A stretch of DNA of 64,000 nucleotides from Candidatus Eisenbacteria bacterium (GTDB lineage Bacteria; Eisenbacteria; RBG-16-71-46; JAFGJU01). The notes beneath the pieces were generated by a model, which saw only the letters and a list, made by a program, of their open reading frames with translations, searched no databases and was not told where the DNA came from. The first letter of the stretch is position 1; every line of letters starts with the position of its first letter. The stretch covers positions 1 through 64,000 of the forward strand of contig JAPLKG010000002.1 in assembly GCA_026388185.1 (NCBI GenBank). The letters are read 5' to 3'. Of the stretch, positions 18,359 through 64,000 are shown piece after piece. The translations under genes and the position numbers were made by a program.

Positions 18359-18365
18359 ATAATAC

Positions 18366-19286: not shown

Positions 19287-19314
19287 GTAATACGAACAGT
19301 ACAGGAGGTACACT

Positions 19315-23283: not shown

Positions 23284-23284
23284 C

Positions 23285-26900: not shown

Positions 26901-27989
26901 GTGCTCCCATGGCCGTTGCTAGCATGTATTGATGCGGCAGATGGACCAGATGATTTGCGGTCGTTCGCGGAGCGGATAGACCGCGGTGAAATGGGTAATT
27001 GCGAGGATTGGCTCAGAGCAGAGAAGCGTTGGCAGAATCAAGGGATCACCAGTGACGATGTACGTTTTATGAACGATGAAAGATGGCCGATTCCCAAAGA
27101 GATCGCTGATGTGGGGATCCCTCTTGGTGTTTGTCGCTTCGATTTTGGGAGGCGGACTTGGAAGACTGCTGGCCTCAAGAAGTTCTGGGAAGTTCTGCCG
27201 GGAGCGAAGTCGAGAGCCTGTTTTGCCCCATGGTTGGTTTATGCTTCGCTCGGCCAACACGGGCCTTTCGGTATTCCAGATGACTTGCACGCGATAGGGG
27301 AGGACATGCGTGAGGTTTTCAAAGATGCGCTTGGTGCACTCAAAGGAAGAATCCCGATGCCTTCTAGCATCATCACTGGGGTTATCACACTTTGGGGAAA
27401 ATCCCCGGATTCAGTGGCTTTGTTGGATCTCTTGGGGAAGAAGTCGGAATCCGTCTATCGTTCAGGGCCCGAATTCGTCTCATGGGACGGGGACAGCGCG
27501 GCCGTTGACTTCATCGCCTCTGCAATTGCTAAAGATTCCTCCCTTGTCGGTCTCCGGTCTTTGCTAGCCATGATAGCAGAGACGCGCAGGATTGGGGGTG
27601 TCGGGTCTTCTGTTGCACACCTCGTAGAAGATAAGGACCCTGGTGTTGCCAGAGATGCAACAATTTTGGAGATGTGTCGACCAGAACTTGACGAGAGTGC
27701 GGTTCGTCGCATTCTAGAGTCAATCCCGAAGCGGTGGTCGGGTGATTCCGAGACCGTGAGACGGTTCGTCGGAGTCTTCGCCCACCAGCTTATGGCGAGC
27801 ACCGCTGCTACCAGCTTCCTGGAGATTCTTTGGGAGCAGGTTCCTGCTGAAATGAGTCACGTCAGGCAACAGATTATTGAACTCATGATGACTTTCTTAG
27901 GCCAGAGAGTCACTCGCTTAGGAGAGGAGCGAGTCTGGAGGGACATGGAGTTTCCGCCTGGACTCCGCGGAATGCTGATGAAACAATGA
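23955..27989 (+). CDS. Large NACHT NTPase with N-terminal PD-(D/E)xK nuclease-like domain
   Basis: 1344 residues. Residues ~10-190 resemble a restriction-endonuclease fold: FEQMIQALSYKV, then GDGPDGGREATF with acidic Asp38, and VVVQAKF with Gln67-x-Lys69, the D...QxK form of the catalytic set. A NACHT module follows: Walker A GGPGQGKST (296-304), Walker B LLILDGLDEV with Asp411 and the NACHT-type Asp414-Glu415, and LILATTRPQGYNEEF as sensor. The remaining ~850 residues are helical, with no repeat named with confidence. This is the layout of bacterial NLR-like anti-phage proteins (bNACHT/Avs type), in which ligand binding by the C-terminal part triggers oligomerisation and nuclease activity. 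Codon and base use is more AT-rich than core genes. No partner gene is needed by known relatives. The ligand is unknown. Confidence 0.85.
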   Translation: MGDHDFTGLSARSFEQMIQALSYKVLGPGLVIFGDGPDGGREATFSGRLSNFPSATDVWDGYVVVQAKFCQRPKGKPAEDARWLSNELKKELDSFAARGSKRKKPEYYILVTNVVLSPAPCRGGKDKITDVIAQYAKRVGIKEYRVWDYDQLCRYLDADQDVRNAYRVWITSGDVLAKLASVVEKSFPEFTKVMVNFLQKELLDDHYSKLEQAGHSPENRVPLERVFVDLPTFPERQSEAPKEGEDPRELPSGFLFAILKKGAMCLRPDEEFTSLSGQRPEQVPQQTEVGRYVLIGGPGQGKSTLAQFLCQIHRANLLRDRGDLEPDAKDAVNSILAQSKRQGLDAVFARRFPFRIELARFAKVLANSKETKVTSVLSYVAFAIRERSDYQVSPDDLRIWLRDYPWLLILDGLDEVPPSSNRTQVLEAVRDFQVDVSSCQADVLILATTRPQGYNEEFSPRRYAHLWLAPLSVARALHYGTTLVELTYQHDSQRKKEVLSRLKEAAKVDATVRLMESPLQVTIMARLLAQIAKPPQERYKLFQQYYKVIYRREMERNVPVLSQLLRDYETDIDAIHYNTGLLLQIESERTQHTDATLSIKEFKTIVRDRLDKEGHLEKVLEKLSGDITKCATDRLVFLVPSQSERVGFEIRSLQEFMAAEALMDGKDQVVVSRMKAIAGVPFWQNVLLFTAGKCFAERQWLRDNVSEICAEMNDDPGDPLAHLVQAGSRVALALLEDGPSRRQPAYSHALARRALGLLSLPPSQVHDRLADVYEPDFETVYREEVGRFLAGDQGSQTLGTWRLLLRLATKKSLAWARKCAEEYWPNDMETTETVLDVVDVLEEPWIWSKCEDRFFDFPSLVRPHRLLPDGIKDLEKQRIVRNKLVLQALKVEAMWWYPREVPTQLFRLPGIGELSFSTLSLEAARAILSSLANLKSVHPYWVPLVVSAQFSENPTKEVLSAALRELADSMQPQQTDRSYFLSVLPWPLLACIDAADGPDDLRSFAERIDRGEMGNCEDWLRAEKRWQNQGITSDDVRFMNDERWPIPKEIADVGIPLGVCRFDFGRRTWKTAGLKKFWEVLPGAKSRACFAPWLVYASLGQHGPFGIPDDLHAIGEDMREVFKDALGALKGRIPMPSSIITGVITLWGKSPDSVALLDLLGKKSESVYRSGPEFVSWDGDSAAVDFIASAIAKDSSLVGLRSLLAMIAETRRIGGVGSSVAHLVEDKDPGVARDATILEMCRPELDESAVRRILESIPKRWSGDSETVRRFVGVFAHQLMASTAATSFLEILWEQVPAEMSHVRQQIIELMMTFLGQRVTRLGEERVWRDMEFPPGLRGMLMKQ

Positions 27990-28078
27990 ATGGGCAGATG
28001 GGAATTCTTGGGGCTCCTGCAGCGTTGGCAAGGACCGGCAGTCCCGATGCTAAAGATATGAGGAAAAGCGCCAGCACC

Positions 28079-28118
28079 TGCTTCACCTGCGCGTCACTGC
28101 GTGCCGCCAGGTGAAGCA
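28079..28118 (+). terminator. Inverted repeat downstream of the NACHT gene
   Basis: Perfect 11-bp arms (28079-28089 TGCTTCACCTG and 28108-28118) with an 18-nt spacer, 90 bases after the NACHT stop codon. There is no T run, so a terminator role is only likely; a protein-binding site is the alternative. Confidence 0.4.
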
Positions 28119-28247
28119 CACCTAGGCCCTGGGAGGGCGGCATTCAGATGTCTATCTGTTTAGGACAGGGTCACCAAAGTTACTAGCTTCTACAAATGTG
28201 AGAGGAAAGTCGCTCGACCGAATCCCAACGCCGGCCCGAGCAGTGAC

Positions 28248-28817
28248 ATGCGCAAGCGCATACCAGATAAGGCGGCGACAACGGTGCTCGTTATGAGCCG
28301 CAGAAGATGTTGTTTATGTTTTGGTCTTGAGGGGGATCACAGCATGGTATTGCATGGCCAGATAGCTCATCTGGACAGGGATCACGAGAACAACGACGAG
28401 GACAATTTGGCTTACCTGTGCAACAAGCATCATGCGGTCTACGACTCAAGAAGCCCGCTGAGCAAGAGCATGACTCCTGGCGAGGCCAGGAAATATAGAG
28501 AGGAGCTGTATGCATACAACAGGAACCACCTTGGCCTGCAAGACCCTCAGGAGGAAATGGAAATCGTATTGTTGGTGATCGGGCAAGATCCGCCAGTCTC
28601 ATTCAGAGCCATAAGACGCCACGTGACTTTGATCCGCTGTAGCGAGACAAGGCCTGCACAAACGCAACGGCAATTGGACGAGTTTGTTCGGCTTGGCGTG
28701 TTCGTCGAGGTAGGCTCTGAAGAATACATCATGAATGACACTGCGCTGGCCGAATTGAGCAAGGCTCACGATCATGCGACAGAAGAGCCAAGACAACTAC
28801 CAGAGAGCGAGGCATAA
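28248..28817 (+). CDS. HNH-type nuclease-like protein with C-terminal winged-helix-like part
   Basis: 189 residues. The N-terminal half has an HNH-like zinc and catalytic pattern: CxxC at Cys21/Cys24, His41-x-Asp43-x-Asp45-His46, Asn53, then Cys58 and His61-His62 (segment AHLDRDHENNDEDNLAYLCN). HNH endonucleases cut DNA with one metal. The second half (about 100-180, QDPPVSFRAIRRHVTLIRCS and TQRQLDEFVRLGVFVEVGSE) looks like a winged helix. The stop codon lies inside the left arm of an attC-like hairpin (28811-28874). No strong ribosome-binding site precedes ATG 28248, so the start is tentative. A role in phage defence is suggested only by its neighbours. Confidence 0.65.
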   Translation: MRKRIPDKAATTVLVMSRRRCCLCFGLEGDHSMVLHGQIAHLDRDHENNDEDNLAYLCNKHHAVYDSRSPLSKSMTPGEARKYREELYAYNRNHLGLQDPQEEMEIVLLVIGQDPPVSFRAIRRHVTLIRCSETRPAQTQRQLDEFVRLGVFVEVGSEEYIMNDTALAELSKAHDHATEEPRQLPESEA

Positions 28818-28874
28818 CAAGAGCATCCAACGGACAGGGCTAACGCCCTGCGCGCTGATGCTCGCCGTTATGCC
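28811..28874 (+). other. attC-like integron recombination site (solitary)
   Basis: A 64-base imperfect palindrome with attC architecture: outer boxes GGCATAAC (28811-28818) and GTTATGCC (28867-28874) pair perfectly. A 2/3-base internal loop follows, then inner boxes GAGCATC (28821-28827) and GATGCTC (28857-28863) pair perfectly. After an unpaired centre comes a terminal CAGGGC-TAAC-GCCCTG hairpin. The stop codon of the HNH gene is in the left outer box, as is usual for integron cassettes. No integrase of the IntI type and no second site were found in the window. Confidence 0.6.
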
Positions 28875-28919
28875 ACACGATGTTCACTGTAACTCGACTT
28901 GAGTGAAAACAGACTGAAC

Positions 28920-28939
28920 CCAGAGGCAATGCCCTCTGG
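28920..28939 (+). other. Short hairpin upstream of the TIR-like gene
   Basis: CCAGAGG (28920-28926) pairs with CCTCTGG (28933-28939) over a six-base loop. It ends 20 bases before the ATG at 28959 and just before its GGAGG site, so it could influence translation. Confidence 0.3.
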
Positions 28940-28958
28940 ATGTCTGGAGGTCAAACTA

Positions 28959-30119
28959 ATGGCTAAGCGTCAAAAGTTCGTCGGCTATGTATCGATCCCT
29001 TTCGGGATAAAGCATCGCGATGATTTCACGGAGTTGTATAAGAAGGCAATTTTTGCCTCGACCGCTCTCGTTGCTTCCGGAGAGCCGTCTAACGTATGCC
29101 TGTTCCGCGAAGATGAGGAGGAACCTACCCACCTGTACGAGGCACGACATTACCGGCGGTTGGAGCGGTTTGGACGTGCCTCCGTCAAGCCGGAGCGACG
29201 TCTTCGGGACGAGATTCAAAGGCATATCATCCTTGCCGACTTCGTAATTGCAGATATTTCTCACCTGAATCCCAACGTAATGCTAGAAGTTGGCTTTGCG
29301 CAAGCGATTGACAAGCGTATTATCTATGTCACTCATACTCCAGACCAATTTCCGAGCAACCTTGGCGACCTCAAGCGGCGTTATGATTACAATACTCGCG
29401 ACCTTTTTACTCTCAAACGAAACTTGTGGCACAAAATCAGCGAAGTCATTGAGGAGGTGAAGCACGAAGACCTGCTCGAGAAGGAACACGGAGGTACAAT
29501 CGAATACTTCCGAGAACGCAAGAAGGCCGCACTTGAGGATAAGTTCGCGAAGGCTCAGAATGTAATTCAGATATTGACTACTAACCTGATGACAGTTAGC
29601 GCCGTATATCTGGTTTCGATTCTTACTGCGATATCGAATGCGAAGAAGGATGGGAGGAAGCTCAAGGTGACCATATTGACTTCCGATCCGACAAACCCAT
29701 TCATCGAAGCGCGTGCTAATCAGCTGATTGAAAACCTCGATGGATATCGCGGTGAACTGGAAGGTAGTTTGAAAGCTATCGCAGCCAAGCTGCAAAGGGA
29801 ACCACATTGTAAGATTCTAACATATCGTGAGTTTCCCGTTCAACTCTGGCACCGTATCGATGGAACGATCTATATTGGAGCCCCCTCACTGATTCGCCGC
29901 TCACGGGACAACTGTGTATTCGCTGTTTCCGTGGATATTCCCGGAATAAAGGAGACATTTCTTGATCATTTTGCTGAACTTGAAAAGCGAGCTAGAGTCT
30001 ATGCTCCAGAGAAACACAGGCGCGTGAAGCCGATGTCCACAGGGGGCGATGCAGCCGGAGAAAAGAAAGAAGCCTCGAAGGCTAAGAAGCAGAAGTTCGA
30101 TTCTAACTCACGGAAGTGA
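28959..30119 (+). CDS. Protein with TIR/nucleoside-deoxyribosyltransferase-like N-terminal domain
   Basis: 386 residues. The N-terminal ~150 residues carry ADFVIADISHLNPNVMLEVG followed by FAQAIDKRIIYVTHT, the core of nucleoside 2-deoxyribosyltransferase and TIR-like domains; Glu110 is the expected catalytic glutamate and Asp99 the conserved acid. Such domains hydrolyse NAD or nucleotides in several immune systems. Residues ~190-365 form a second domain with KVTILTSDPTNPFIEARANQ, YREFPVQLWHRIDGTIYIGA and FAVSVDIPGIKETFLDHF, reminiscent of sensor domains with PLD-like character; that is inference. A basic tail closes it. GGAGG nine bases from ATG 28959 sets the start, not the in-frame ATG at 28899 or 28929. 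The four-TM gene follows after 93 bases, in the same direction. Confidence 0.65.
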   Translation: MAKRQKFVGYVSIPFGIKHRDDFTELYKKAIFASTALVASGEPSNVCLFREDEEEPTHLYEARHYRRLERFGRASVKPERRLRDEIQRHIILADFVIADISHLNPNVMLEVGFAQAIDKRIIYVTHTPDQFPSNLGDLKRRYDYNTRDLFTLKRNLWHKISEVIEEVKHEDLLEKEHGGTIEYFRERKKAALEDKFAKAQNVIQILTTNLMTVSAVYLVSILTAISNAKKDGRKLKVTILTSDPTNPFIEARANQLIENLDGYRGELEGSLKAIAAKLQREPHCKILTYREFPVQLWHRIDGTIYIGAPSLIRRSRDNCVFAVSVDIPGIKETFLDHFAELEKRARVYAPEKHRRVKPMSTGGDAAGEKKEASKAKKQKFDSNSRK

Positions 30120-30140
30120 CGTTCTAGGTAGCAGCTGAAC

Positions 30141-30162
30141 CCGCAGCCGGATCCGGCTGCGG
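30141..30162 (+). terminator. Perfect 22-bp palindrome between the TIR-like and four-TM genes
   Basis: CCGCAGCCGGATCCGGCTGC plus GG forms a 9-bp G/C-rich stem with a GATC loop. It lies between two co-directional genes and may be a partial terminator setting their expression ratio, or a protein-binding site. Confidence 0.45.
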
Positions 30163-30212
30163 CTAGTCGCAACGTCACGTGCACAGGATTCGCATGAAGG
30201 AAGTGTGAGATA

Positions 30213-30839
30213 ATGCATCGCCACGAGGAGTTTCTTCTGAGAGAGTACGATCTGGCCGCCAAATTGACTTATCACATAGACGATCTGCGCAATAAGCTTA
30301 CGAGCTTCTTCCTCTCTTTTGCCGCTGCGGCTGGTGCGGCTCTGGTAATCCTGGTGAAGGGGGAGGCGAGGGCGTTTCTCACGAACCAGCGTCTGGGTGT
30401 TCTCTGTCTTGGAATCGCGATTCTCGGTGGACTCGTTGTGGGAATACTTGCCCGATGCAGACGTGCACAGATTGAGCATTTTCGTATCATCAACAACGTG
30501 AGAGAGTACTTCCTCGGTCGAGATTACGACCTTTGGAACGTTGTGCAGCTGTCAGGTCAGACTCTGCCAGTTCCCAATAGGAGATCGGGGACATTCATGT
30601 GGACTGCGCTGATAATGGTCGTGGACAGTTCGCTTGTGTCCCTCAGCCTGTATCTCATCTTGTCCTCGACGTTGGCAAGTTGGTTCTTGGTCACAGGTGC
30701 GTTTCTCGTAGCCTGGTTGGTCCTGGATCGGTTATATTTTCGGCTTGCCAGGCCGCCGGAGGAGATCAGATACAGTGCGAGCAATCCACCGGATGGAGCG
30801 TGTGAGACGAGAGCACATGCGCGACATCGTTGCACATAA
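30213..30839 (+). CDS. Four-helix membrane protein (SLATT/4TM-like)
   Basis: 208 residues. Two pairs of transmembrane helices (about 29-49 with 61-81, and 127-148 with 153-173) are separated by a soluble helical segment, and an amphipathic helix (HEEFLLREYDLAAKLTYHID) precedes the first. This resembles the SLATT/S-4TM effector layout found with bacterial immune genes, but no signature motif proves it. GGAAG upstream sets the start. It follows the TIR-like gene on the same strand, suggesting a two-gene unit in which a nucleotide-sensing or NAD-consuming protein works with a membrane partner. The last ~20 residues are basic. Confidence 0.5.
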   Translation: MHRHEEFLLREYDLAAKLTYHIDDLRNKLTSFFLSFAAAAGAALVILVKGEARAFLTNQRLGVLCLGIAILGGLVVGILARCRRAQIEHFRIINNVREYFLGRDYDLWNVVQLSGQTLPVPNRRSGTFMWTALIMVVDSSLVSLSLYLILSSTLASWFLVTGAFLVAWLVLDRLYFRLARPPEEIRYSASNPPDGACETRAHARHRCT

Positions 30840-30924
30840 CTTGCGGTTGCGCCTGGCCTGGCGAGCGCTATTGTAACGCCGCTTGAGGGGCAAGTGTCGC
30901 GCCAAGCTGGCTACGGCACACAAT

Positions 30925-31275
30925 TCAAGTATCTAGTAGCCCGGATATCTTCAGTATGTGCTGCGCCCATAGGTTCGTTTGCCTGGCCACGGTGCGACGG
31001 CGCGCTCTGTCAGACCACGTTGTGGCCCAATTCTGCTGCAATTTCGCCAGCTCCACCTGTATCTGCACCAATTGGGCGGCGGTCTCTATTTCCATCTCGG
31101 GGACCGGCCACTCTATAAAATACTTGCCCTCTTCAAGTATGCTCTCCACAGTCGCCGAATCGGCATCGTCACGGGCAAACGATCTTACCCCGCTAAGATT
31201 GGCCGCGATCCCTCCAAGCCGGATCTGAAGGGGATCAAGCATATAGCGTTCACGGATCAGAAGAAGATCTCTCAT
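30925..31275 (-). CDS. Unknown small helical protein
   Basis: 116 residues on the minus strand; family not recognised. Sequence character is protein-like: an aliphatic N-terminal part (RDLLLIRERYMLDPLQIRLG), LEEGKYFIEWPVPEME, and a long helix with AAQLVQIQVELAKLQQNWAT, ending WAQHILKISGLL. GAGAGG lies three bases before ATG 31275; the frame is open further upstream to 31362. It is one of few minus-strand genes in the island and might be a coupled regulator of nothing obvious nearby. Chance open frame is a possible alternative. Confidence 0.45.
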   Translation of the reverse strand: MRDLLLIRERYMLDPLQIRLGGIAANLSGVRSFARDDADSATVESILEEGKYFIEWPVPEMEIETAAQLVQIQVELAKLQQNWATTWSDRARRRTVARQTNLWAQHILKISGLLDT

Positions 31276-31893
31276 ACGCCTCTCAGCAAAGCCTGAGCAA
31301 TCCCACGTAAACGTGCAATCTGAATCACAGCTCACTCCGATGAATAGACGTTGCCGCAGCATCGCCAGGCCTTATGGCGCTAGAAATCGACGGCGCGAGG
31401 AAACTCTGCGAACCTGTCCTCGGCGCTGGGAGCTGACAGTCACTGAGTACTTCATCTCCCTCCGACATTCACTGCGGCAACACTTGACTTGTGAGCAGGA
31501 CAGTGCTACGGTTATGTGAGCGCGCCACAGAGGCGTGGCAAGTTACCCAGGGTTCGTCAAGATACACCGCAGATTCTTGTCACTGTATTGAATTATCTAG
31601 TTCGGTGTACTGCATATTAGGTGGCTATAGGCACAGGCGCAGTTACACATAATTTAAGTTAGGTAAGATGGTATAGATAAGATGAAGGAGGTGAGATATG
31701 TTGATCTTACCAACTGAATAACATTTCAAATACTATATGGTTTGGAACATAGGAGGATGAAAATGTAATTCTAAATTGTAAAATACCATAAGGCATCATT
31801 TGTCATCAGTACTTTCCTTCTATTCTAAAGTTATACATCCAATTTTAGAACAATAGTGAGATCGATGTGCATCATTATGACAAGGAGGATTAC
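31276..31893. other. Long intergenic region with repeat copy B and AT-rich sequence
   Basis: 31408-31621 holds repeat copy B. From about 31620 onward the sequence becomes strikingly AT-rich compared with its surroundings, which continues to about 32280. No gene is seen before 31894. Confidence 0.6.
31408..31621 (+). repeat. Modular dispersed repeat, copy B (short form)
   Basis: Same order of blocks as 21831-22311 but shorter by about 270 nt: GCGAACCTGTCCTCGGCGC, then a core with TTGACT (31484-31489), a 17-bp spacer and TACGGT (31507-31512). GTGAGCGCGCCACAGAGG follows, then directly GGCAAGTTAC, GATACACCGCAGATTCTTGT and TTATCTAGTTC. The hairpin arm is ATGTG against CACAG, one pair weaker than in copy A. 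The conservation of the core, spacing included, is higher than that of the joining segments. Confidence 0.7.
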
Positions 31894-32160
31894 ATGGCAA
31901 ATTCAGTCGAAGTTAGTGGTTTCATTTTCAGTATTCTTGATCGAATAGGCACAAAATCCGAGGGAGTTGAATACTACTTGCAGCTACTGGAGAGATATGA
32001 TTCTTTTGATAACATGAAGAAATATCACATAGAAAAGAAGGCAGAGCCATGGAAAGTAGATGTCAAACTTCAACCCCTATCAGGTTGTATGGTCAAGATA
32101 AAGGGATCTATTCTTGAGGAAAATATTGAGTACATCTCGCTAGATAAAATCGGTCCGTAA
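31894..32160 (+). CDS. AT-rich orphan gene, 88 residues
   Basis: 88 residues; family not recognised. ATG 31894 follows AAGGAGGATTAC, a strong ribosome-binding site; an in-frame ATG at 31867 lacks one. Codon use is A/T-ending (AAA, GAA, ATA, TTC), unlike the surrounding genes, consistent with recent transfer. The product is a mixed alpha/beta protein with an amphipathic start (VSGFIFSILDRIG) and a C-terminal strand-rich part (VDVKLQPLSGCMVKIKGS); it has no signal peptide. It might be a small effector, immunity or regulatory protein, but nothing indicates which. Confidence 0.5.
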   Translation: MANSVEVSGFIFSILDRIGTKSEGVEYYLQLLERYDSFDNMKKYHIEKKAEPWKVDVKLQPLSGCMVKIKGSILEENIEYISLDKIGP

Positions 32161-32835
32161 TTGTTTCGAACTATGACAAACTATTGCCATTAGCATGTCT
32201 TTCCTTCTAGAACTTCTGTCTTGTAGATGATAAATATAGTATAGATAGTCTATTGCATAAGATAGACAAGCCGCTTTACCCATATGAGGCCTCCCCGCGT
32301 CAAGGGGTAGAGTTCGGCCGCGACCGGCGGGGGAGTCGGTCGTAGCATGTGTCAAGATATGGCCTCCTGACTTCGTTTCAGACTGTTGGTGCTGGGCGGT
32401 GTCCTGCACCAACCACGTACAGAGGTTCCAGGTTCATCGGACACGCCCTCTGAACCGCTGGCTTTAGGCGCCGGAGCGGGGGAGAAGATCCCCGCGCCAG
32501 CCTCAAGAGCCTTACCTTGGATACGCGTTCTTCCTTTTTCTGACCACAAGACGTCAAGACGACCCTCAGGGAAGCATCTAGACCCCAAGCCTTCTTCCTC
32601 CCGTCGCCTCGCGCAGGAGTGCACGTGTCATCTCCGACGTTAACTCGCTCGTCACCCCCCAGCTTTCCTCTTGCATCCTCCCGCGCAACAGCGTATTCTT
32701 GTTGTTTACATAATCAGACGTGATTTCCTCCGGGACCATTCGCGCAGTGTTTTTCTGCGAGCGCCCAGTCTGAACTGTGTGTTTCGCCCGAAGCATCCCA
32801 GCAGAATCGCGGAATTCTGAGAGGGGACCCGACAC
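32161..32835. other. 675-base intergenic region at the right border of the island
   Basis: The first ~120 bases are AT-rich and mark the end of the transferred tract. Then come the right copy of the 47-bp repeat (32283-32328), a hairpin with GTTGGTGC arms (32385-32392 and 32406-32413), and a GCGGGG-(8)-CCCCGC hairpin (32476-32495). Open frames here are short and not protein-like. The rest, up to the uvrC start, shows nothing I can name. Confidence 0.55.
32283..32328 (+). repeat. Right copy of the ~47-bp direct repeat
   Basis: TATGAGGCCTCCCCGCGTCA and the following AGGGGTAGAG, ending CCGCGACCGGC, match the left copy at 19016-19062 in the same orientation with few differences. Confidence 0.75.
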
Positions 32836-36080: not shown

Positions 36081-37154
36081 ATGAGACGAATCTCTATGAC
36101 ACGAAAATCGACTCCCGACGACAGTAAGAGCATTGGGCGCACGCGCAAGGCGAGCGAAGGCAATGCCGCCACGGACGTGCTCGACCGCAGGCACCGCAAT
36201 CCCGGAGGCCGTTGGCGCGCCTCAAGCACGACCGGCTCGAAACAGACCGAGGCGCTGCTCGAGAGCTTCAGGCAGTATCTTCTGCTCGAGCGCAGGCTGG
36301 CTGGCAACACGGTTGAGTGTTACGCGGGAGACCTCCGGAGGTTCTTGCGAGCTATGGCGGCCAAAGGGAAGCTTCCGGCCGAGGCGAAGAGGACACACGT
36401 GGCGGAGTATCTTTCTTCACTCACAAGAAAGGGTTTTGACCCTTCCTCCGTGGCGCGCAATCTGTCGTCCGTCCGCGCTTTTTATTCATACCTCATCGGG
36501 GCCGGGCTCACCGTGACGAACCCGACCGAGCTTCTGGAACGGCCGAGGCTGTGGAAGAGACTGCCGCAAACCCTGAGTGTGGACGAGGTAAAGGAGCTGC
36601 TCTCGCAGCCTGACTGTTCGACCCCGCTCGGCCTCAGGGACAAGGCCATGCTCGAGTTCATGTACGCGACCGGGTGCCGGGTGTCCGAGCTGCTGACGAC
36701 CACGGTTCAGGGTGTCGACCTGGAGGAACGCCAGTTCAGATGTCTCGGAAAGGGAGGAAAGGAGCGATTGGTACCGGTTGGCTCCCCCGCCTGCAGGGCG
36801 ATCGGCGAGTATCTGCGGACGAGCAGGCCTGCTTTGGCCAAGGGCAAGGGTTCGGGATTCCTTTTCTTGAACGCGCGGGGACGAAGGCTCTCGCGCATGG
36901 GTTTCTGGAAAATCCTCCGCAAGTATTGCCTCCAGGCGAGGCTCCGCATAACGCCGAGCCCGCACGTCCTGAGGCATTCGTTCGCCACCCATCTGCTCGA
37001 AGGTGGCGCGGATCTCAGGGTGGTCCAGGAGCTGCTCGGCCATTCGTCCATCTCGACCACTCAGATTTACACCCAGGTGGACCGTGAATACCTGAGGAGC
37101 GTTCATTCGCGTTTTCATCCCAGGGCGACCGTTCCGTCGCACAAAGGTGGATGA
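36081..37154 (+). CDS. xerD: Tyrosine recombinase XerD
   Basis: 357 residues. The first ~52 are an extra disordered, basic tail (KSTPDDSKSIGRTRKASEG...), then the SAM-like domain and catalytic domain. Catalytic residues are Arg200 (TGCRVSEL), Lys224 (GKGGKERLVP), His295 and Arg298 (SPHVLRHSFATHLL), His321 (LLGHSSISTTQ) and Tyr330 (IYTQVD). It is a second Xer recombinase in the window. XerC and XerD act as a heterotetramer on dif, activated by FtsK; the dif-like site lies 7.7 kb downstream. The assignment of D rather than C rests on the partner gene at 10313. The start lacks a clear Shine-Dalgarno site. Confidence 0.9.
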   Translation: MRRISMTRKSTPDDSKSIGRTRKASEGNAATDVLDRRHRNPGGRWRASSTTGSKQTEALLESFRQYLLLERRLAGNTVECYAGDLRRFLRAMAAKGKLPAEAKRTHVAEYLSSLTRKGFDPSSVARNLSSVRAFYSYLIGAGLTVTNPTELLERPRLWKRLPQTLSVDEVKELLSQPDCSTPLGLRDKAMLEFMYATGCRVSELLTTTVQGVDLEERQFRCLGKGGKERLVPVGSPACRAIGEYLRTSRPALAKGKGSGFLFLNARGRRLSRMGFWKILRKYCLQARLRITPSPHVLRHSFATHLLEGGADLRVVQELLGHSSISTTQIYTQVDREYLRSVHSRFHPRATVPSHKGG

Positions 37155-44212: not shown

Positions 44213-44584
44213 GTGAACGAACAACTTGAACCGAAAGAACAAGTTGAACCAAAAGAGGCGCGACTCCTTGCAGCAGCGTCCTACGTCTTGTTCCTGTGTT
44301 TTCTACCGCCGCTCCTTATCAAAGAGAACGGCTTCGCGATGCATCACGCCAGACAGGGATTCCTCCTTTTCTTCGTGGAAATCGTCCTCTCAATATTGGT
44401 CTACATCGTAGAGCACTCCATAGGCCTCATCCCGATTCTCGGCTTCTTGATCGTGGTCCTTCTCAAGTTTGCGACCGGCATCGCCATCCTACTGGTGGTC
44501 GTCATAGGTATCGTCAAGGCAATCTCCGGTCAGACCTGGACAATTCCTTTCGTGGGGGAGTACAGCTCCAAGGTCCCGTTCTAG
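44213..44584 (+). CDS. Small DUF4870-like membrane protein
   Basis: 123 residues with a GTG start after ACGGAGGTAAAAG. A charged N-terminal tail (EQLEPKEQVEPKEARLL) is followed by a four-helix hydrophobic core (AASYVLFLCFLPPLL, GFLLFFVEIVLSILVYIVEH, GLIPILGFLIVVLLKFATGI, AILLVVVIGIVKA) with MHHARQGF between helices 1 and 2, the DUF4870 hallmark (HAxQ/RqG-like). Function unknown. It is the last plus-strand gene before the strand switch; dif-like site and a strong hairpin follow. Confidence 0.7.
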   Translation: MNEQLEPKEQVEPKEARLLAAASYVLFLCFLPPLLIKENGFAMHHARQGFLLFFVEIVLSILVYIVEHSIGLIPILGFLIVVLLKFATGIAILLVVVIGIVKAISGQTWTIPFVGEYSSKVPF

Positions 44585-44715
44585 GCGATGTTCTAGGCGG
44601 CCGCAGGCTCTTGCGCACGTGCCGGATCCAGCCGTCCACGTCGCGCGCACGATTCCGGCCGTCAGAGCAACAAATTGCACGACTGCCAAGCGCCTCACAG
44701 GGTACGCATGACGTA

Positions 44716-44749
44716 GCCACGGGCGGGCCGGAGTGCCCGCCCGGTGGCG
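44716..44749. terminator. Strong hairpin, likely bidirectional terminator
   Basis: GGGCGGGC (44721-44728) pairs with GCCCGCCC (44735-44742) over CGGAGT, extended by GCCAC with GTGGC around a one-base bulge. It is 130 bases after the last plus-strand gene and may end transcripts from both sides. Confidence 0.6.
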
Positions 44750-44817
44750 GCGTAGGCCTCGCTGCTCATACCGCATCCAGCTTGGGACTCGAACCCCTTC
44801 CCCGGCGCCCGATTTCT

Positions 44818-44845
44818 ATGTCGCATAATACCTATTATGTAAACC
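44818..44845 (+). other. dif: dif-like Xer recombination site
   Basis: 28 bp: left arm ATGTCGCATAA (44818-44828), central TACCTA (44829-44834), right arm TTATGTAAACC (44835-44845). The right arm TTATGTAAAC is the same as that of B. subtilis dif as I recall it, and CGCATAA-(6)-TTATG matches E. coli dif. The arms are an imperfect inverted repeat, as in known sites. It lies exactly at the switch from plus-strand to minus-strand genes. XerC and XerD are both encoded upstream. Confidence 0.8.
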
Positions 44846-44942
44846 TACTAGTCCAAAGCCTTCTAGCGGCCTCATTCCGCCCGCGCCGAGCACGATCCGA
44901 TCAGCTCGACTCAGCCTGTAGCTCGCCACCTTACCCGGTAAC

Positions 44943-47459
44943 TCATCTTGTCACTATGTTGAGTAGTTTACCCTGGACGTGGAAGGTTTCCTTTATGTCC
45001 TTGTCCTTCAGGTGCTGGGAGACCTTGGGATCCTGCTTCGCAGCCGTCTCGATTTCGTCTCTGGGCGTCCCCGCGGCCAGCGTGAGCCTGGCGCGCACCT
45101 TTCCGTTCACTTGGACGACCAGCAGGTAGGTCTCCTCAGTCAAGGCGTCCTCGTCCCATTCGGGCCACGGCTGGAGGAAGACGCTCCCGGGCGCGGCTCC
45201 TGCGGGCGCCAGCCAGCCGCCTGGTTTTGCGCCCCTAACGCGGGCTGATGCGGGCAGCTTTAGCCAGAGCTCCTCGGCAATGTGAGGAGTCATGGGCGAA
45301 AGCAGGACGACGAGGGCTCGCATGGCCTCGTCTACGACGTCATCCTGCCTCTCGGAGGCTTCGCCTCGAATGTAAACGGTTACGGCATTACTCAGTTCCA
45401 TTAAAGCACTTACGGCCGTGTTTTGATGGAACGTCTGAAGGTCAAGCGACACCTTCTTTATGGTTTGGTGGACCTTTCGCCTGAGCGCCACGGAACCGGG
45501 GGTGGGGGCACCGCCGGGTTTTCTCTTGCCTTCGGAGGCGTAGTAGTTCATGACGAGGCTCCATAGCCTCCCCAGGAACCGGTGGGCGCCTTCGACTCCC
45601 CTCTCCGTCCATTCCACGTCCCTGTCGGGAGGGCCGATGAAGAGAGTGTAAAGCCTTGCCGTATCCGCGCCGTAACGTCCAATAAGATCCTCGTTGCTCA
45701 CGACGTTGCCCTTTGACTTGGACATTTTCGCGCCGTTCATGCAGATCATGCCCTGCGTAAAAAGGCGCCTGAACGGCTCGCCAAAATCGAGTCGCCCTGC
45801 GTCCCTCAAGGCCTTCGTGATGAATCGAGAGTACATGAGGTGCAGGATGGCGTGCTCGACCCCGCCGATGTAGAGGTCCACGGGCAGCCAGCGGTTGACC
45901 AGTTCTCGACTGAAGGGATGTGTCGCATCCCGGGGTGTCGGATAGCGCAGATAGTACCAACTCGAATCTACGAAAGTATCGAGCGTGTCGGTTTCCCTGC
46001 GGGCAGGTCCGCCGCACTTGGGGCACGTCGCCTTGAGAAAATCGCTCCTCTTCAAAAGCGGCGACTTTCCGTCCGGCTCGAACTTCACGTCCTCGGGTAG
46101 AATCACCGGCAAGTCCGATTCGGGCACCGGCACCACGGAACATTTCTCGCAATAGACGACGGGTATGGGCGTCCCCCAATATCGTTGACGCGACACGAGC
46201 CAATCTCTGAGCCTGAAGCGCACTGCTCTCCGGCCAATCCCCTTGTCCTCCATGTACGAGGCTATCCTGTCACGCGCCTCGTCGCTCGGAAGCCGAGAGA
46301 ACTGCCCGGATTCTACGAGCATTCCATCCTCTTCGTAGGCCTCAGAGAGCTTCTCAGGCCGGTCTTTGCCGCTCGGTACGATCACTTCCTTCACGTCGAG
46401 ACCATATTTGTGTGCGAACTCAAAATCCCTTTGGTCGTGAGCCGGAACGGCCATGACGGCGCCCGTTCCATATTCCACGACGACGTAGTTCGCGATCCAG
46501 ATCGGAATTCTTGCCCCGGTCATGGGATTCGTGGCATAGAGTCCGGTGAAGACGCCCAACTTTTCCTTGGCGGGTTCCCATCGTCGCGCCAGGTTCTGCT
46601 CTCTTACCTTCTCGACGAAACTCCTGAGCTCATCGTCGTGCGTGCTACCCAGCACCCGGTCGAGTAGCCCGTGCTCGGGAGCAAGAACCATGTATGTGGC
46701 GCCGTAGATCGTGTCGTGTCTTGTCGTGAAGCAGCTTATCTTCCCGCCGGACTCCAGCGGGAAGTCTATGTCCACGCCTTCGCTTCTGCCGATCCAGTTG
46801 CGCTGCATGAGCTTCACCTTGTCCGGCCATTCGGTGAGCTCATCCAGCCCGTCAAGAAGTTCTTGAGCGTACGCAGTGATCTTGAAGAACCACTGCGCGA
46901 GTTTCCTCTGAGTGACCTCAGTCTCGCATCGTTCGCACGCGCCGCCAATTACTTGTTCGTTGGCCAGCACCGTGCCGCACTTGGGACACCAGTTTGCAGC
47001 AGCCTCCGCCTTGTAAGCCAACCCCGCCCTGTAGAGCTCCAGGAAGAGCCAGTGCGTCCACTTGTAGTAGCCTGGTTCGCACGTCCTGACCTCCCTGCTC
47101 CAGTCAAAACCCGTGCCCCACTGCTCGAATTGGCTCTTCATCGCCCTAATGTTGGTCCGGGTCCAGTCCGCGGGGTGAATGCTCCTCTCGATTGCGGCGT
47201 TCTCGGCAGGCAGTCCGAACGCGTCCCAGCCCATTGGCCTGAGGACGTCGTACCCCTGCATGATCTTCATCCTGGCAACCGAGTCGCCCAGGATGTAATT
47301 TCTGCCGTGACCCGCATGGAGCTCGCCCGACGGATATGGAAACATGTCCAAACAGTAGAATTTCTGTTTCGAATTGTCGAACTTTGCCTTGAAAAGCCCG
47401 ATCTCGTCCCAGTAGTGCCGCCACCTGGCTTCTATTCTTTCAAAGTCGTAGCTACTCAT
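44943..47459 (-). CDS. leuS: Leucyl-tRNA synthetase
   Basis: 838 residues; class I synthetase charging tRNA-Leu. The HIGH-type motif is [15 protein letters not shown], the KMSKS motif is [12 protein letters not shown]. An editing domain (CP1) with [18 protein letters not shown] lies between. Zinc-ribbon cysteines ([20 protein letters not shown]) and a second set CPKCGG are visible, as is [15 protein letters not shown] 47459 is chosen, although the frame opens at TTG 47468, two bases from GGGGAG. In E. coli leuS lies beside lptE and holA; here the same three genes are near, with a thioredoxin system between. Confidence 0.96.
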
Positions 47460-47480
47460 GAGGCCCAATTCTCCCCACGG

Positions 47481-57042: not shown

Positions 57043-58197
57043 CTATCCTATGGGAACTCTCACAGCCACGTAAACTCCCCCGGAAGTTCCGGACACGTCC
57101 ATGGAAAGGGACTTCCCCGGAACGGAGCCGCTCTCCTCAGGGGCAATCGTGGAGGCGCGCGCGGCGTCCAGGATGCTCAAGGCCCAGAGGCCCAAAGTGA
57201 GACCTCTCAGCGTACGTTTCGCCAGCGATGCGCCGTCCAAAGTGTCGAACTTATCCTCGACTTCCTGCCTCGCCATCAAAACCGCTTCCTCGGTGCTCGC
57301 CGTCTCGTACTTGTGAAGAGCCTCGGAGTACCGAACCTGACAGTCCCTGTAGTACTGCTGGGCAATCAGCGCAGCGCCGGCCGCGGACACGACTGAAGCG
57401 CTCCAAAACGTGCCCGCGGATTTGTGCCCTGCGTAAATGTGCCCCATTCCAGGAAAAAGCGTTCCCCTGAGCACAGAGGATGACATGCTCACGGGCTTCA
57501 GACGAAACGACAGACCGTTCGCACCCGCGCCCACCACCCCGCTCCCACGATCAAGAAGAACATTCTCCAGGAATCCGTAGACAGCGGGCACGGCGGCTGC
57601 CATCAAGTAGCCGTTCCTGGCGAATCTCGCATTCTTGGCGAACTCGTAGTTCCGCGAGAGCTTCGTGTGATATACCGCGGCCTCCTCCTCGTTCCGAGCG
57701 GACTTGTACTTGCTATCAAACTCTTGGTACTTCTCCCTGTACCTCTCGGCCCGCCATTCCTCCCTCGCTGCCCCAAGCACCGCAATCCCCTGGGTTATGC
57801 TAAGTATGATTCCCTTCTGCGTCTCACCTCTTACAAACTTGGAAGGCCCGGCAAGTCCCGCCAGCGTAGTGACGACTTCGGCCCCGTTGGCGCCGGCCCT
57901 TACCTTAGGCGACACGCCCGGCCTCTGCGGTCCGATGTCCACCCATCCCACCCTCGTCTCGAATCCGGACTTCTCAATCTTGACTCGAAAATGACCGCCG
58001 AGCTGCATCGGGAGCTCAAACGCAGTGACACCGGAAATCCGGATCGGGCCGACGAACTCCACCGCACTTCCGTTCGGGCTGGAGGAAATCGCCATGCCGC
58101 TCCCTAGACAGGATCCGGTGAACAGCAAAACACCCAATATGACGGAGTGCACAACAATCACGGGGATTCTGTGCGTCATCTTGTATTCAGTAGTCAT
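57043..58197 (-). CDS. Unknown envelope protein with PEGA-like and DUF5683-like parts
   Basis: 384 residues. Signal peptide-like N-terminus (IPVIVVHSVILGVLLFTGSC), then a PEGA-like beta-domain (SSPNGSAVEFVGPIRISGVT, HFRVKIEKSGFETRVGWVDI). A helical part with a charged stretch (EEWRAERYREKYQEFDSKYK) follows, then hydrophobic LRGTLFPGMGHIYAGHKSAG and FWSASVVSAAGAALIAQQYY. The LFPGMGHIYAGH motif is typical of DUF5683-like proteins. The starting ATG is 58197 or 58179. A promoter (TTGACT 58234-58229, TAAGTT 58212-58207) lies only nine bases upstream of 58197, so the message may be nearly leaderless. Confidence 0.6.
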   Translation of the reverse strand: MTTEYKMTHRIPVIVVHSVILGVLLFTGSCLGSGMAISSSPNGSAVEFVGPIRISGVTAFELPMQLGGHFRVKIEKSGFETRVGWVDIGPQRPGVSPKVRAGANGAEVVTTLAGLAGPSKFVRGETQKGIILSITQGIAVLGAAREEWRAERYREKYQEFDSKYKSARNEEEAAVYHTKLSRNYEFAKNARFARNGYLMAAAVPAVYGFLENVLLDRGSGVVGAGANGLSFRLKPVSMSSSVLRGTLFPGMGHIYAGHKSAGTFWSASVVSAAGAALIAQQYYRDCQVRYSEALHKYETASTEEAVLMARQEVEDKFDTLDGASLAKRTLRGLTLGLWALSILDAARASTIAPEESGSVPGKSLSMDVSGTSGGVYVAVRVPIG

Positions 58198-58382
58198 ACT
58201 GGCTGAAACTTAGCCGCTCTGGGGGAAAAGTCAAGGGAAAAATCCTGGGGTACACCTAGGAGATTGAGGGGTGCAAGCAGTTGTCACAACAGGGAGTGGA
58301 CCGTGGCCGGCAGAACCGGGCCCTCACAGTGCGGGCGGGCGAGCGCTCGGATGGTGCGAAGGCAGGTGGCTCGGCCCGAGCA

Positions 58383-59507
58383 TCACGGGGCCGGGATAAG
58401 ACGCACGAAGTCGTAGCCTGCGATCTCGTGAAAGATGGGATACAAGTCGTCGGTGGTCACAGCGCGGAAGTACACGCCACCGGTAATCTGGACGACCTGC
58501 TTCATGAGGGGCTCGCCGATGTGGTATATCAGCTGGCCGGAAGGACACCGCGGGTCTTTGTCCTCGCCGAAAACGACTGCGTAGACGATAACGTGTTTCT
58601 CCTTCGCATAGTTGGCTTGCGTTACCACCCAGTTCAGTGGTCTAGAATCAAAGACACAAGGACTGAGTCTGTCGTAATATCTACCCTTTATAACGTTCGC
58701 CAGGCCGTCGGTTATCAGCACGACAATCTTGGGATTCGGACGTCCGCTGGTCGCCAGCGAGTCCGTTGCCATGCGCATCCCGCCTCCTATGTCGGTATAT
58801 ATGCTTGTTCCTCTTCCCGGCTCGAGCCTCTGTATGCCTGCTACGACGGCGGCCGCCTCGTTCTTCAGATACTTGAGCCGCACGTCACAGCTCAGGTACG
58901 TGTTGTAAGAAACCACACCCATCATGGTTTCGTCTGCTAACTGGTTGACCAGATAGACGCCGGCGTTTTTTACGCTGGTCATCGGCTCCCAGGCACATTC
59001 CGACGGGCAATACGGACAGGGCTGACCGGGATGGTCATTGCACATACTGCCGGAGCGGTCCAGGACCAGCATGAGGTCTGCACCCACTCTCTGTGCAGCA
59101 GACACTGCCCGGATGGTCGTGGACTGCTTGCCCAACACTCGCGCGAACCACAGCGATACCTCCTGGGTGCTCTCCACCTTCATGGTACCGACCGGGTTCC
59201 CGAGAAAGGTGAGGGTGACCTCGGGGGCGGTCACCGCTTCCGCCTCGGGGAGATTCCGAGCCATGTAATCGTTGAAGGTGTCAGTCGCGTCAGAGGTGTT
59301 CGGCAAGTCCTGAGCGGCGGCCAACGCCGAAGCGTCAGTGGCCTTCTGAAGCTGCGCCCTGTACGCCATTACCATGCCTACATCGACGACGAGCGCAACA
59401 GCACCTACAAGCACAACCATCAAGGCCGCAACCAGAACAATGACTGCCCCTCTTTGGCCCCGCCAATGTAACGTCCTTCGAATTCTAGACAACGCTTCTC
59501 TCAACAT
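58383..59507 (-). CDS. tadG: TadG-like protein with von Willebrand A domain
   Basis: 374 residues from ATG 59507, with GGAGG six bases upstream. The N-terminal pseudopilin-type segment (GQRGAVIVLVAALMVVLVGA, VALVVDVGMVMAYRAQLQKA) and ATDASALAAAQDL are the TadG/Flp-related hallmark. Residues ~135-340 form a vWA domain with the MIDAS motif DLMLVLDRSGSMC and later threonine and VVLITDGLANVI. It anchors or tips the Tad/Flp pilus and binds a divalent metal. Four cysteines (CNDHPGQPCPYCPSEC) next to the MIDAS are unusual. It lies downstream of tadE in the Tad cluster. Confidence 0.85.
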   Translation of the reverse strand: MLREALSRIRRTLHWRGQRGAVIVLVAALMVVLVGAVALVVDVGMVMAYRAQLQKATDASALAAAQDLPNTSDATDTFNDYMARNLPEAEAVTAPEVTLTFLGNPVGTMKVESTQEVSLWFARVLGKQSTTIRAVSAAQRVGADLMLVLDRSGSMCNDHPGQPCPYCPSECAWEPMTSVKNAGVYLVNQLADETMMGVVSYNTYLSCDVRLKYLKNEAAAVVAGIQRLEPGRGTSIYTDIGGGMRMATDSLATSGRPNPKIVVLITDGLANVIKGRYYDRLSPCVFDSRPLNWVVTQANYAKEKHVIVYAVVFGEDKDPRCPSGQLIYHIGEPLMKQVVQITGGVYFRAVTTDDLYPIFHEIAGYDFVRLIPAP

Positions 59508-59584
59508 TGCATTCCTCCGCATCGAATCGAAGATCAAGCCCCGCGTTCGTACCAAGGGGAATGGGCCGCCTGTCTCGATGCGCC

Positions 59585-59977
59585 CTACTCCAACCTCATC
59601 ACGGCCTCTGCGCTAACGGGGAAGGGATCGTTCGAAAAGAAGCGTTCAAACATGGGAGTGACAATCTCCACAGGATAGGTCACCCGGACGGTCACAGGAT
59701 CCCCTCGCAGTCCAGAGGCGCCCGTCACTTGCACCACCAAGAGGCTTGCACTGCAGCTCGGACAAGCGTTTTTCACCTTCTGGATCACTTCCGACGCGCT
59801 CACCCCCACAGCCGCATAGCGCGCTCCCTCCCTGGCCCCGTTGAGAACGACGAGGTAGGTGTTTAACACCCTCCCGAACTCCAGGATACCCACTACCAAC
59901 AACATAAGAAGCGGGAGTACGAGGGCGAATTCAACCACCGCAGCCCCTCTCCTGCTCCGAAGCAGAGAAAAACCCAT
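59585..59977 (-). CDS. tadE: TadE-like minor pseudopilin
   Basis: 130 residues. The class III signal/transmembrane segment is RRGAAVVEFALVLPLLMLLV followed by VGILEFGRVLNTYLVVLNGA and REGARYAAVG, the TadE signature. The Glu in VEF five residues into the mature form is conserved for processing by TadV. ATG 59977 follows GGGAAGTAGAAGGT; the frame is open to 60001 with a TTG. A CPSC motif in the middle might bind metal or form a disulfide. Confidence 0.9.
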   Translation of the reverse strand: MGFSLLRSRRGAAVVEFALVLPLLMLLVVGILEFGRVLNTYLVVLNGAREGARYAAVGVSASEVIQKVKNACPSCSASLLVVQVTGASGLRGDPVTVRVTYPVEIVTPMFERFFSNDPFPVSAEAVMRLE

Positions 59978-60146
59978 ACCTTCTACTTCCCTCCGAGACA
60001 ACGACCTTTCACTCTACGCCCCATTGACCTGAACGCGGGGTTCACCAACCTTCCCCACACACCCAGTACCCCTCTTCGTGCTCTAGCGATAGAGCAAAAT
60101 CCGTGCCGCTACACCCCTCCACAACCCACGCGCCCGCAACCGGGCT

Positions 60147-60995
60147 TTACTTCACCCTAAGAAAGAACAGGAAGACGAGCCCGGCAAGGAAAATGGCGAA
60201 GACTATCATCGTGAGGTGCTTTCCGTACTCCCGCACCAGGGGCCTCAGAGCAGTGGGAATTCCGCCTCGATCAGCAAATTGCGTTCTCGCGTACCCGTGT
60301 GACGTAACGGCCGTCCCGGCGCTCTTCTTCGTGACTGCCCCTGTAGTTGAGTCCGTCACCCCCGCCGTAGCCCCCAGGGCAGCCCCTGCCTGGGTTCCGA
60401 TGCCGCTTTCGGCGACCGGCTCCCGTCCGAGGACGACGCTCACACCCTTTTTCATCGCTACTACGGCCTCATCCAGAGTGATCCCCAGCAGGCCTCCGAT
60501 GAGTGCCCCGCATGCCAGCACAATCACCAAACCTATCGCAAAACGCACGAACCAACTGCCAAAAACGCCGATCACGGAATCCTCTTCATGCCGCGTTTCT
60601 TCGTGGCCCAGCATCAGCCCGTAGCGGCGTTCCTTGAGGGCACCCTCAAGTTTGTTCAAGAAGATAAAGATACTATGCCACCGCGCGATTATCTCCTCCG
60701 TTTCCTCCCTCGTCAGAGCCTCAGGCGTAGCGAGGGTCGTGAACGAATTGAGCATCTCCGTGATGTCGCGCACGGCTGCCAGTGCCTCGGGATCGCTGGC
60801 GCCACCTCTCTCCACCACCGTGAGAACCGGCAGAAGATGGGCGATCTTCGCCTTCAGTCGCAGGAATCCCTCTTCTTGCGCCTTCTGCACGCCCTCCTTG
60901 CCAAGGCTTGTCTTCAGGAAGTCGCCGAATCGAATCCAGGTTTCGATCAGGCATTTTATTTTTCGCTTCCCATTCCTTCCATTTGTGGAGTGCAT
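60147..60995 (-). CDS. Unknown two-TM protein in the Tad cluster
   Basis: 282 residues; family not recognised. The first ~150 residues are helical and charged (SLGKEGVQKAQEEGFLRLKA, DPEALAAVRDITEMLNSFTT). Then two transmembrane segments: GSWFVRFAIGLVIVLACGAL near 150-175, and HLTMIVFAIFLAGLVFLFFL at the end. Between them is a Gly/Ala/Thr-rich linker. ATG 60995 follows GGGG. It lies between the TadE gene and a small signal-peptide gene in the same direction, so it may belong to the pilus system, but nothing in the sequence proves this. Confidence 0.5.
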   Translation of the reverse strand: MHSTNGRNGKRKIKCLIETWIRFGDFLKTSLGKEGVQKAQEEGFLRLKAKIAHLLPVLTVVERGGASDPEALAAVRDITEMLNSFTTLATPEALTREETEEIIARWHSIFIFLNKLEGALKERRYGLMLGHEETRHEEDSVIGVFGSWFVRFAIGLVIVLACGALIGGLLGITLDEAVVAMKKGVSVVLGREPVAESGIGTQAGAALGATAGVTDSTTGAVTKKSAGTAVTSHGYARTQFADRGGIPTALRPLVREYGKHLTMIVFAIFLAGLVFLFFLRVK

Positions 60996-61048
60996 GCAAT
61001 CCCCTTCTGACTACAAGATCACGGTGCGCGCTGAGTCAAGACCGGAAA

Positions 61049-61071
61049 CCCGTGCGCGAACGCCGCACGGG
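61049..61071 (-). terminator. Hairpin between two Tad-cluster genes
   Basis: CCCGTGC (61049-61055) pairs with GCACGGG (61065-61071) over nine bases, just after the stop of the small gene at 61082 on the minus strand. No T run; role uncertain. Confidence 0.35.
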
Positions 61072-61081
61072 CGCCTGCCGT

Positions 61082-61438
61082 CTACCAGTATATCTTGGCG
61101 ATCAAGACATCTTGTTTCGGAATCACGAGTTGCTTCTCAACTCTCTGCCCGGTCCTCTTCACCACGTATCCCAGTGAAAGCGCAATCTCGTAGTCGGAGA
61201 TCTTCACGAGCCTGCCGGAATACTTTTCGCCGAAGAACGTGCAGACGTCTACGTAACTCGTCGATGGGGCGTTGCTTCCCCACGGCTTCAGAAAGAAAAC
61301 CTCGTTTGTCACGTAGACACAGGGCTCGACGTCGGATCTCAGAAAGTACTGCCGATAGGTCTCGACGCCGAGAGCCGACCCATCAATCAACAAGGTAGCC
61401 AGGACCGTCAGTGCGACAGCAATGAACACGTTTCGCAT
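61082..61438 (-). CDS. Small exported protein in the Tad cluster
   Basis: 118 residues; not recognised. Signal peptide (FIAVALTVLATLLIDGSALG) then a beta-rich domain with two cysteines (VEPCVYVTN and VDVCTFFGE), FSGRLVKISDYEIALSLGYV-type strands and an end IPKQDVLIAKIYW. AAGGAGGAAGGTCACAC precedes the ATG. Its place between the Tad ring proteins (TadC) and a two-TM gene suggests a periplasmic pilus accessory factor. Confidence 0.5.
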   Translation of the reverse strand: MRNVFIAVALTVLATLLIDGSALGVETYRQYFLRSDVEPCVYVTNEVFFLKPWGSNAPSTSYVDVCTFFGEKYSGRLVKISDYEIALSLGYVVKRTGQRVEKQLVIPKQDVLIAKIYW

Positions 61439-61476
61439 GTGTGACCTTCCTCCTTCTTTTCGCCCAAAGAACTAGT

Positions 61477-62445
61477 CTAACCCTTTCCTGTGATCTGCTG
61501 AATGGCCCGGATAATGGTCACCACCGCCGGACCCAGTATGACGGCAAGCAATGCCGGAAAAATGCACAGGACCAGCGGGAAGACCAGCTTCACGGTGGTC
61601 TTGGCCGCGGCCTCCTCTGCTCTCTGCCTTCTTCTCGTCCGCACGGAATCCGAGTGCACACGCAGCGCCTGGGCAACGCTGGTGCCGAGTTTGTCCGTCT
61701 GCACCAGCATGGCGACCAAAGAGCTCAAATCCTCCACGCCCGTCCTGGCCGTCAAGCCACGAAGAGCTTCCGCGCGCGGCTTACCCGCTTTCGTTTCCTG
61801 CGTAACGAGCAGCAGTTCGGAGCTAAGGGCAGGGCTGGCCGCACGCATTTCGTTCGCCACTCTCGCCAGTGAAGCATCGAGACCCAGACCTGCCTCCACG
61901 CAAACCACCATGAGGTCGAGGGCATCCGGAAGGTTACGCACTATCTCCTTCTGGCGACGTCTGGCGGAATAGTTCAACCAGTAATCCGGTATCAGATAAC
62001 CCGCAATCGCGGCAAGTAACCCAATGAGGAGAATCCCTCCGGGCGATTGCCCCAACCAGACACCGAGGGGAATCGAGAACGCGAAGAGCACCATTGCAAC
62101 GAAGATCTTGGCTCCGTGATATATTCTGAGAGCGTTCTCCCTACGATAACCCGCATACGTGAGCAGCTTCTTTAGTCTCGGCTCCGCCTTGCGCCCCCTC
62201 GTGGGGGCAAGCCCCCCAACTACGCCCTTCAGCGAATCCAGGGCGCTACTCGACACATATCTCGCTTTAGCCGTGAACCCGACACGTTTCGGCCCACGCC
62301 GTCCGTCCGTGTCACTCAGCGCTCCCAACCTCTTCTCCAGCGCTTCGGGAGGCTTCAACGCGAAGTAGAGAAGAACTCCCGCACAGAGGCTGAGGCTGGC
62401 GAACACGAGCAGCGCTATCATCTGAATGGAACCCAACATCGTCAT
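61477..62445 (-). CDS. tadC: Type II/IV secretion F-type platform protein TadC
   Basis: 322 residues with the T2SSF domain: DALDLMVVCVEAGLGLDASL, ELLLVTQETKAGKPRAEALR and the C-terminal FPLVLCIFPALLAVILGPAV helix. Transmembrane helices at both ends and near 120-170. Together with TadB it forms the inner-membrane platform of the Flp/Tad pilus. The ATG at 62445 overlaps the tadB stop (ATGA), and GAGGT lies next to it; the longer frame to 62475 is not needed. Confidence 0.92.
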   Translation of the reverse strand: MTMLGSIQMIALLVFASLSLCAGVLLYFALKPPEALEKRLGALSDTDGRRGPKRVGFTAKARYVSSSALDSLKGVVGGLAPTRGRKAEPRLKKLLTYAGYRRENALRIYHGAKIFVAMVLFAFSIPLGVWLGQSPGGILLIGLLAAIAGYLIPDYWLNYSARRRQKEIVRNLPDALDLMVVCVEAGLGLDASLARVANEMRAASPALSSELLLVTQETKAGKPRAEALRGLTARTGVEDLSSLVAMLVQTDKLGTSVAQALRVHSDSVRTRRRQRAEEAAAKTTVKLVFPLVLCIFPALLAVILGPAVVTIIRAIQQITGKG

Positions 62446-63410: not shown

Positions 63411-63429
63411 ACGCTTCTCCTTTCCCTAA

Positions 63430-64000
63430 TCATACGTCGTCAAAAATGCCCGGAGGAAGATGGACGCCGGAAAGGAAGAGTCTCTCGGCGAACTTGGGCC
63501 TGATTCCCGTCGGCTTGAACCTGCCGAGCACGGTCCCGTCCTCCGCCACGCCCATGCGCTCGAATACGAAGATGTCCTGCATCGTCACGACGCTGCCTTC
63601 CATGCCGACGATCTCAGAGACGTTCGTAACCTTTCGTCTTCCGTCACTCAATCTCGAGATCTGAACCACCACGTCCAGTGCAGAAGATATCTGTTCGCGA
63701 ATGGCCTTCTCCGGAAGCTCCAGTCCGGCCATCAACACCATGGTCTCCAATCTGCTCAGCGAGTCACGCGGGCTGTTGGCGTGGACAGTGGTCAGCGAGC
63801 CGTCGTGCCCCGTGTTCATGGCCTGGAGCATGTCGAGTGCCTCGTCGCCTCTAACTTCACCAACGATGATCCTGTCCGGGCGCATTCGCAGAGCATTGCG
63901 GACCAGGTCTCTCTGATTTACCTTACCCCTGCCTTCGATGTTGGGCGGCCTGGTTTCAAGTCTCACTACGTGTTCCTGCTGAAGCTGTAGTTCGGCGGCA
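63430..64000 (-). CDS. tadA: Tad secretion ATPase TadA/CpaF (partial)
   Basis: C-terminal ~190 residues; the gene runs off the right edge. The frame is open to base 64000 without a start. It begins [20 protein letters not shown], then [20 protein letters not shown] and [36 protein letters not shown], the Walker B, Asp and His boxes of type II/IV secretion ATPases of the CpaF/TadA group. It powers pilus assembly and sometimes retraction. The Walker A is off the window. Order here is tadA-tadB-tadC then unknown genes and tadE-tadG. Confidence 0.95.

Follow-up and report, generated by a model that had tools for sequence, protein, structure and literature searches.

The locus considered here raises the question of whether a 28-bp sequence with Xer-type arms, lying in a gap between genes that converge on it, is the dif site of the chromosome and marks its replication terminus. 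The window, i.e. the whole stretch of 64,000 nucleotides that was analysed, belongs to a Candidatus Eisenbacteria bacterium, and a sequence-only reading of it had proposed both. With a probability of roughly 96%, judged from sequence comparisons, the 28-mer is the chromosomal dif site of this organism. The proposal is supported by the uniqueness of the 28-mer, the retention of its arms in relatives, and a GC skew maximum 560 bp away.

Sequence and genomic setting of the site

The 28-mer was recovered with the sequence and coordinates originally given for it, and its parts are as follows.

44818–44845, plus strand (XerC arm to XerD arm): predicted dif site, 28 bp, ATGTCGCATAATACCTATTATGTAAACC; unique; phylogenetic footprint from 29 class loci
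44818–44828, plus strand: XerC-type arm ATGTCGCATAA; conserved in the class; identical to E. coli at 7 of 11 bases and to B. subtilis at 6 of 11
44829–44834, plus strand: 6-bp central region TACCTA; the middle varies among relatives and the final TA is kept
44835–44845, plus strand: XerD-type arm TTATGTAAACC; identical to B. subtilis at 10 of 11 bases and to E. coli at 8 of 11; TTATGT invariant in 29 class loci

The layout is that of classical dif/XerCD sites, 11-6-11 with partial dyad symmetry, and the inner CATAA is the perfect reverse complement of the inner TTATG, from which 6 bp separate it. Allowing up to three mismatches, the 28-mer was matched a single time in the window (mean of 0.00 in shuffled sequence) and a single time in the 2,619,162-base genome, where the reversed-pattern control gave 0 matches. 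As in classical systems, the site is single-copy (1 match in 2.62 Mb), intergenic (gap 44585–44942) and low in G+C (9 of 28 bases, versus approximately 57% in the surroundings).

The gap comprises the 358 bases that had been described and is bounded by two genes.

44213–44584, plus strand: small open reading frame (ORF), 123 aa, the last plus-strand gene before dif; no Pfam match; kept in this place in several relatives
44943–47468, minus strand: leuS, leucyl-tRNA synthetase, the first minus-strand gene past dif; kept in this place in most relatives

The strand switch at the gap was also confirmed. Pfam scans covered 29 ORFs judged likely to be genes, most of which have matches; those on the plus strand lie to the left and those on the minus strand to the right, and class-wide tblastn gave the same orientations. 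The minus-strand genes include a cluster at 57043–63966 of Tad/Flp pilus-like genes (T2SSE, two T2SSF, and TadE/G-like with a VWA domain).

GC skew, origin and terminus

A turning point of cumulative GC skew near 44.8 kb had been predicted, and one was found beside the site.

44258, no strand: peak of the cumulative GC skew curve, 560 bp to the left of dif

The curve covers 144 kb of the dif-bearing contig, while other contigs were sampled in stretches with gaps rather than as a full curve. Skew flips from plus to minus at the site (+0.064 in the 10 kb to the left, -0.125 in the 10 kb to the right), and to the right it remains minus over the rest of the 166-kb contig. The single dnaA gene lies on contig C14 at 148 kb, where skew switches the opposite way, rising to positive values from values around zero or a little below it. 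No second clear, sustained plus-to-minus switch was seen in the samples from other contigs, and contig C5 alone wavers weakly (+0.039, -0.028, +0.074). The distance of 560 bp between dif and the skew maximum compares with a proteobacterial median of 7277 bp (PMC2731167). From these observations we infer that the site marks the chromosome terminus.

Conservation within the Eisenbacteria class and beyond

Class genomes at least 90% complete (26 in total) were searched with the arms fixed, the centre open (N6) and up to three mismatches allowed, alongside a reversed control. The same arms were found in 20 of the 26 and the control gave 0 matches; a looser pattern added G005, G008, G020 and G022, which carry further arm changes, for a total of 24. 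In the other two, G006 and G015, a convincing site was not found even with the looser pattern. G015 is listed as 100% complete, and an FtsK gamma domain was not found in it either, though XerD-like proteins are present; missing contigs or real loss may account for the absence of both. Two contigs each with a site occur in G001, a family-level relative of the window's genome, and in G011.

The sequence-only reading had also expected relatives to carry the 28-mer once per genome at the same skew switch. The same arms do occur usually once per genome. With the site oriented, skew is lower to its right than to its left in 11 of the 12 class loci that could be used, and in 45 of 53 usable public loci among the matches listed. 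The expected sign is absent at G009 and at the scaffolded G002. The latter was rejected as a closed relative, and its long-range skew order and 104-kb xerD distance were set aside, because G002:C1, although listed as one contig, is a string of pieces with 100-N gaps between them.

In a footprint of 29 aligned class loci, the arms carry high information. The middle of the centre carries little, its last two bases, TA, again carry much, and information falls to near zero bits from one base outside the 28 bp. Conservation of the arms is partly built in, since the arms served to find the loci, whereas the open positions and flanks are free of this effect; the TA is conserved even though the class-wide search pattern left the centre open. 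Conserved arms, above all the XerD arm, are characteristic of classical dif/XerCD, and TTATGT is invariant in these loci, with the same proviso that they were found by their arms. Among the matches listed in a public scan, which sets a lower bound on taxonomic extent, the same arms were found in at least Aminicenantes, Chitinispirillales and Desulfuromonadales, and in others.

Recombinases, FtsK and comparison with known systems

Both recombinases that had been reported from the window were identified.

10295–11227, plus strand: XerC recombinase gene, preceded by topA and a gidA/trmFO-like gene; TIGR02224 334.2 bits, 1 bit under the cut-off of 335.15
36081–37154, plus strand: XerD recombinase gene; TIGR02225 354 bits, above the cut-off

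Catalytic residues of tyrosine recombinases are kept in both proteins: R, K, HxxR, H and Y in XerD aligned to E. coli XerD (1a0p), and likewise in XerC aligned to E. coli XerD. An FtsK with the gamma domain of the classical system is encoded elsewhere in the genome (G000:C8:295031; PF09397, 99.3 bits). When KOPS-like polar motifs, which would guide FtsK toward dif, were looked for, many G-rich octamers proved strand-biased; no motif exceeds the general skew, and KOPS of E. coli does not stand out from the other octamers.

The site shares with B. subtilis dif the 28-bp length, the 11-6-11 layout and 20 of 28 bases overall. The right arm had been likened to that of B. subtilis, and the two indeed agree at 10 of 11 bases, while the XerC arm is identical at just 6 of 11. 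With E. coli dif it shares the layout, CGCATAA in the XerC arm and TTATGT in the XerD arm, and both organisms encode XerC, XerD and FtsK-gamma; overall identity is 18 of 28, and xerD lies 7.7 kb from dif here whereas surveyed xerD genes are mostly near the origin (PMC3025954). XerS/difSL of streptococci and XerH/difH of epsilon-proteobacteria resemble the present case in having a recombinase gene near dif (PMC5357621), but here there are two recombinases, a classical 28-bp site and a linkage of 5-23 kb rather than adjacency. A single-recombinase XerS/XerH system was rejected, as XerC and XerD are both present, the site is classical and xerD is 7.7 kb away. By every sequence criterion tested, polar motifs excepted, the site classifies as classical dif/XerCD.

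Binding, cleavage and dimer resolution by XerCD at the 28-mer would be expected to follow the E. coli scheme, with XerC binding the left arm and XerD the right (PMC3025954, PMC5357621). FtsK would pump DNA toward the terminus at septation and join two dif sites at the closing septum, where its gamma domain would activate XerD for the first strand exchange; XerC would then perform the second, resolving the chromosome dimer to two monomers.

Alternative explanations

Phages, plasmids with pdif and other Xer-exploiting elements use dif-like sites (PMC5357621), and five further tyrosine recombinase genes are present in the genome, so that the 28-mer might be the attachment site of a present or former mobile element and not the chromosome's own. 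This is highly improbable given that the site is single-copy, is conserved from family to family and is flanked by housekeeping genes whose order is conserved across the class. Bidirectional terminators occur where gene ends converge, and the position of the 28-mer between two such ends would also suit a terminator, a regulator site or another DNA or RNA element, or a chance arm-like sequence. Shuffled sequences gave no chance matches, 29 loci retain the XerD arm together with the 6-bp spacing, and the same arms occur at skew drops in other phyla, all of which makes such an origin extremely improbable; an inverted repeat at 44720–44743 is a separate candidate terminator in the gap.

A further alternative is compatible with dif identity and limits only the word terminus, namely that the forks mostly meet elsewhere. 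Kono et al. found that dif-to-skew distance is uncorrelated with skew strength and concluded that forks need not terminate strictly at dif (PMC3025954), which keeps this a real though lesser possibility; the skew peak merely 560 bp from dif here speaks against it. Taken as the chromosomal dif, the 28-mer is, judged by its sequence, an ordinary and well-supported site of an uncultured bacterial lineage and represents standard bacterial biology. A literature search found no dif report for the candidate phylum Eisenbacteria, for which a well-supported dif sequence and terminus position are now available. The position of dif allows metagenome contigs to be oriented, growth to be estimated from origin-to-terminus ratios, and elements inserted at dif to be recognized.

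Gene order and linkage of xerD to dif

Comparison of the window's genes with relatives by tblastn revealed an order that is largely shared across the class: topA, xerC and the genes following it, uvrC, xerD, a helicase of the SNF2 type, a glycosyl hydrolase 57 gene and dif, followed on the right by leuS and a set of minus-strand genes that is likewise conserved. Both xerD and dif lie on a single contig in 14 usable genomes, a count that leaves out G002 (gapped scaffold, 104-kb distance); in every one of them xerD is found on the side of the XerC arm and points at dif. The distance is 5 to 14 kb in G000, G001, G003, G009, G011, G013, G014, G016, G021, G023, G024, G027 and G030, with 7.7 kb in the window's genome, and 23 kb in G012. 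The xerC gene lies 19-34 kb from dif in G000, G013, G014, G016 and G027. A Xer gene was detectable near dif in only 4 of the 115 public loci listed, each with a few kilobases of flank.

In the survey by Kono et al., most xerC genes lie close to dif and most xerD genes close to the origin (PMC3025954), and linkage of recombinase and dif has been considered a possible hallmark of single-recombinase systems (PMC5357621). The proximity of xerD to dif is the one unusual aspect of the locus and a small departure from published surveys. Since conservation extends over the entire block of genes, shared ancestry without selection explains the linkage. That the Eisenbacteria terminus is a conserved module of a two-recombinase system, in which selection beyond shared ancestry alone keeps xerD, and often xerC, near dif, is unlikely; if true, the linkage could, for example, match the timing of recombinase expression to late replication.

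Between the xerC and xerD gene blocks, the window contains a stretch of lower GC (17900–32800; about 0.49-0.56) that includes an ORF of 1344 aa with a weak NACHT match (23955–27989). This stretch may be an acquired island, since its genes have almost no matches in the relatives' loci around dif.

dif at metagenome contig ends

Among the 115 public loci listed (L039-L153), dif lies within 200 bases of a contig end in 14, versus 3.5 expected (an excess of about four times), and within 500 bases in 23, versus 8.7 expected. Positions near contig ends were also observed at loci of G001, G011, G030 and G005. In three MAGs, two contigs meeting at dif share overlaps of exactly 87, 99 and 127 bases; these are typical assembler k-mer values, so the assembly graph branches at dif. 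Such breaks may reflect strain variants, elements at dif or low terminus coverage. For the two dif copies of G011, an element integrated at dif was rejected, as the flanks show a strain variant with the same left gene end, and reading of the flanks revealed no second dif at the far end of the insert. The variant contains, to the left of dif, an inserted stretch of a few hundred bases with one small ORF (L236, G011:C154; protein of roughly 135 aa); the insert is absent from the sister contig L237. The contig break at dif in G011 stems from a strain-level insertion beside dif.
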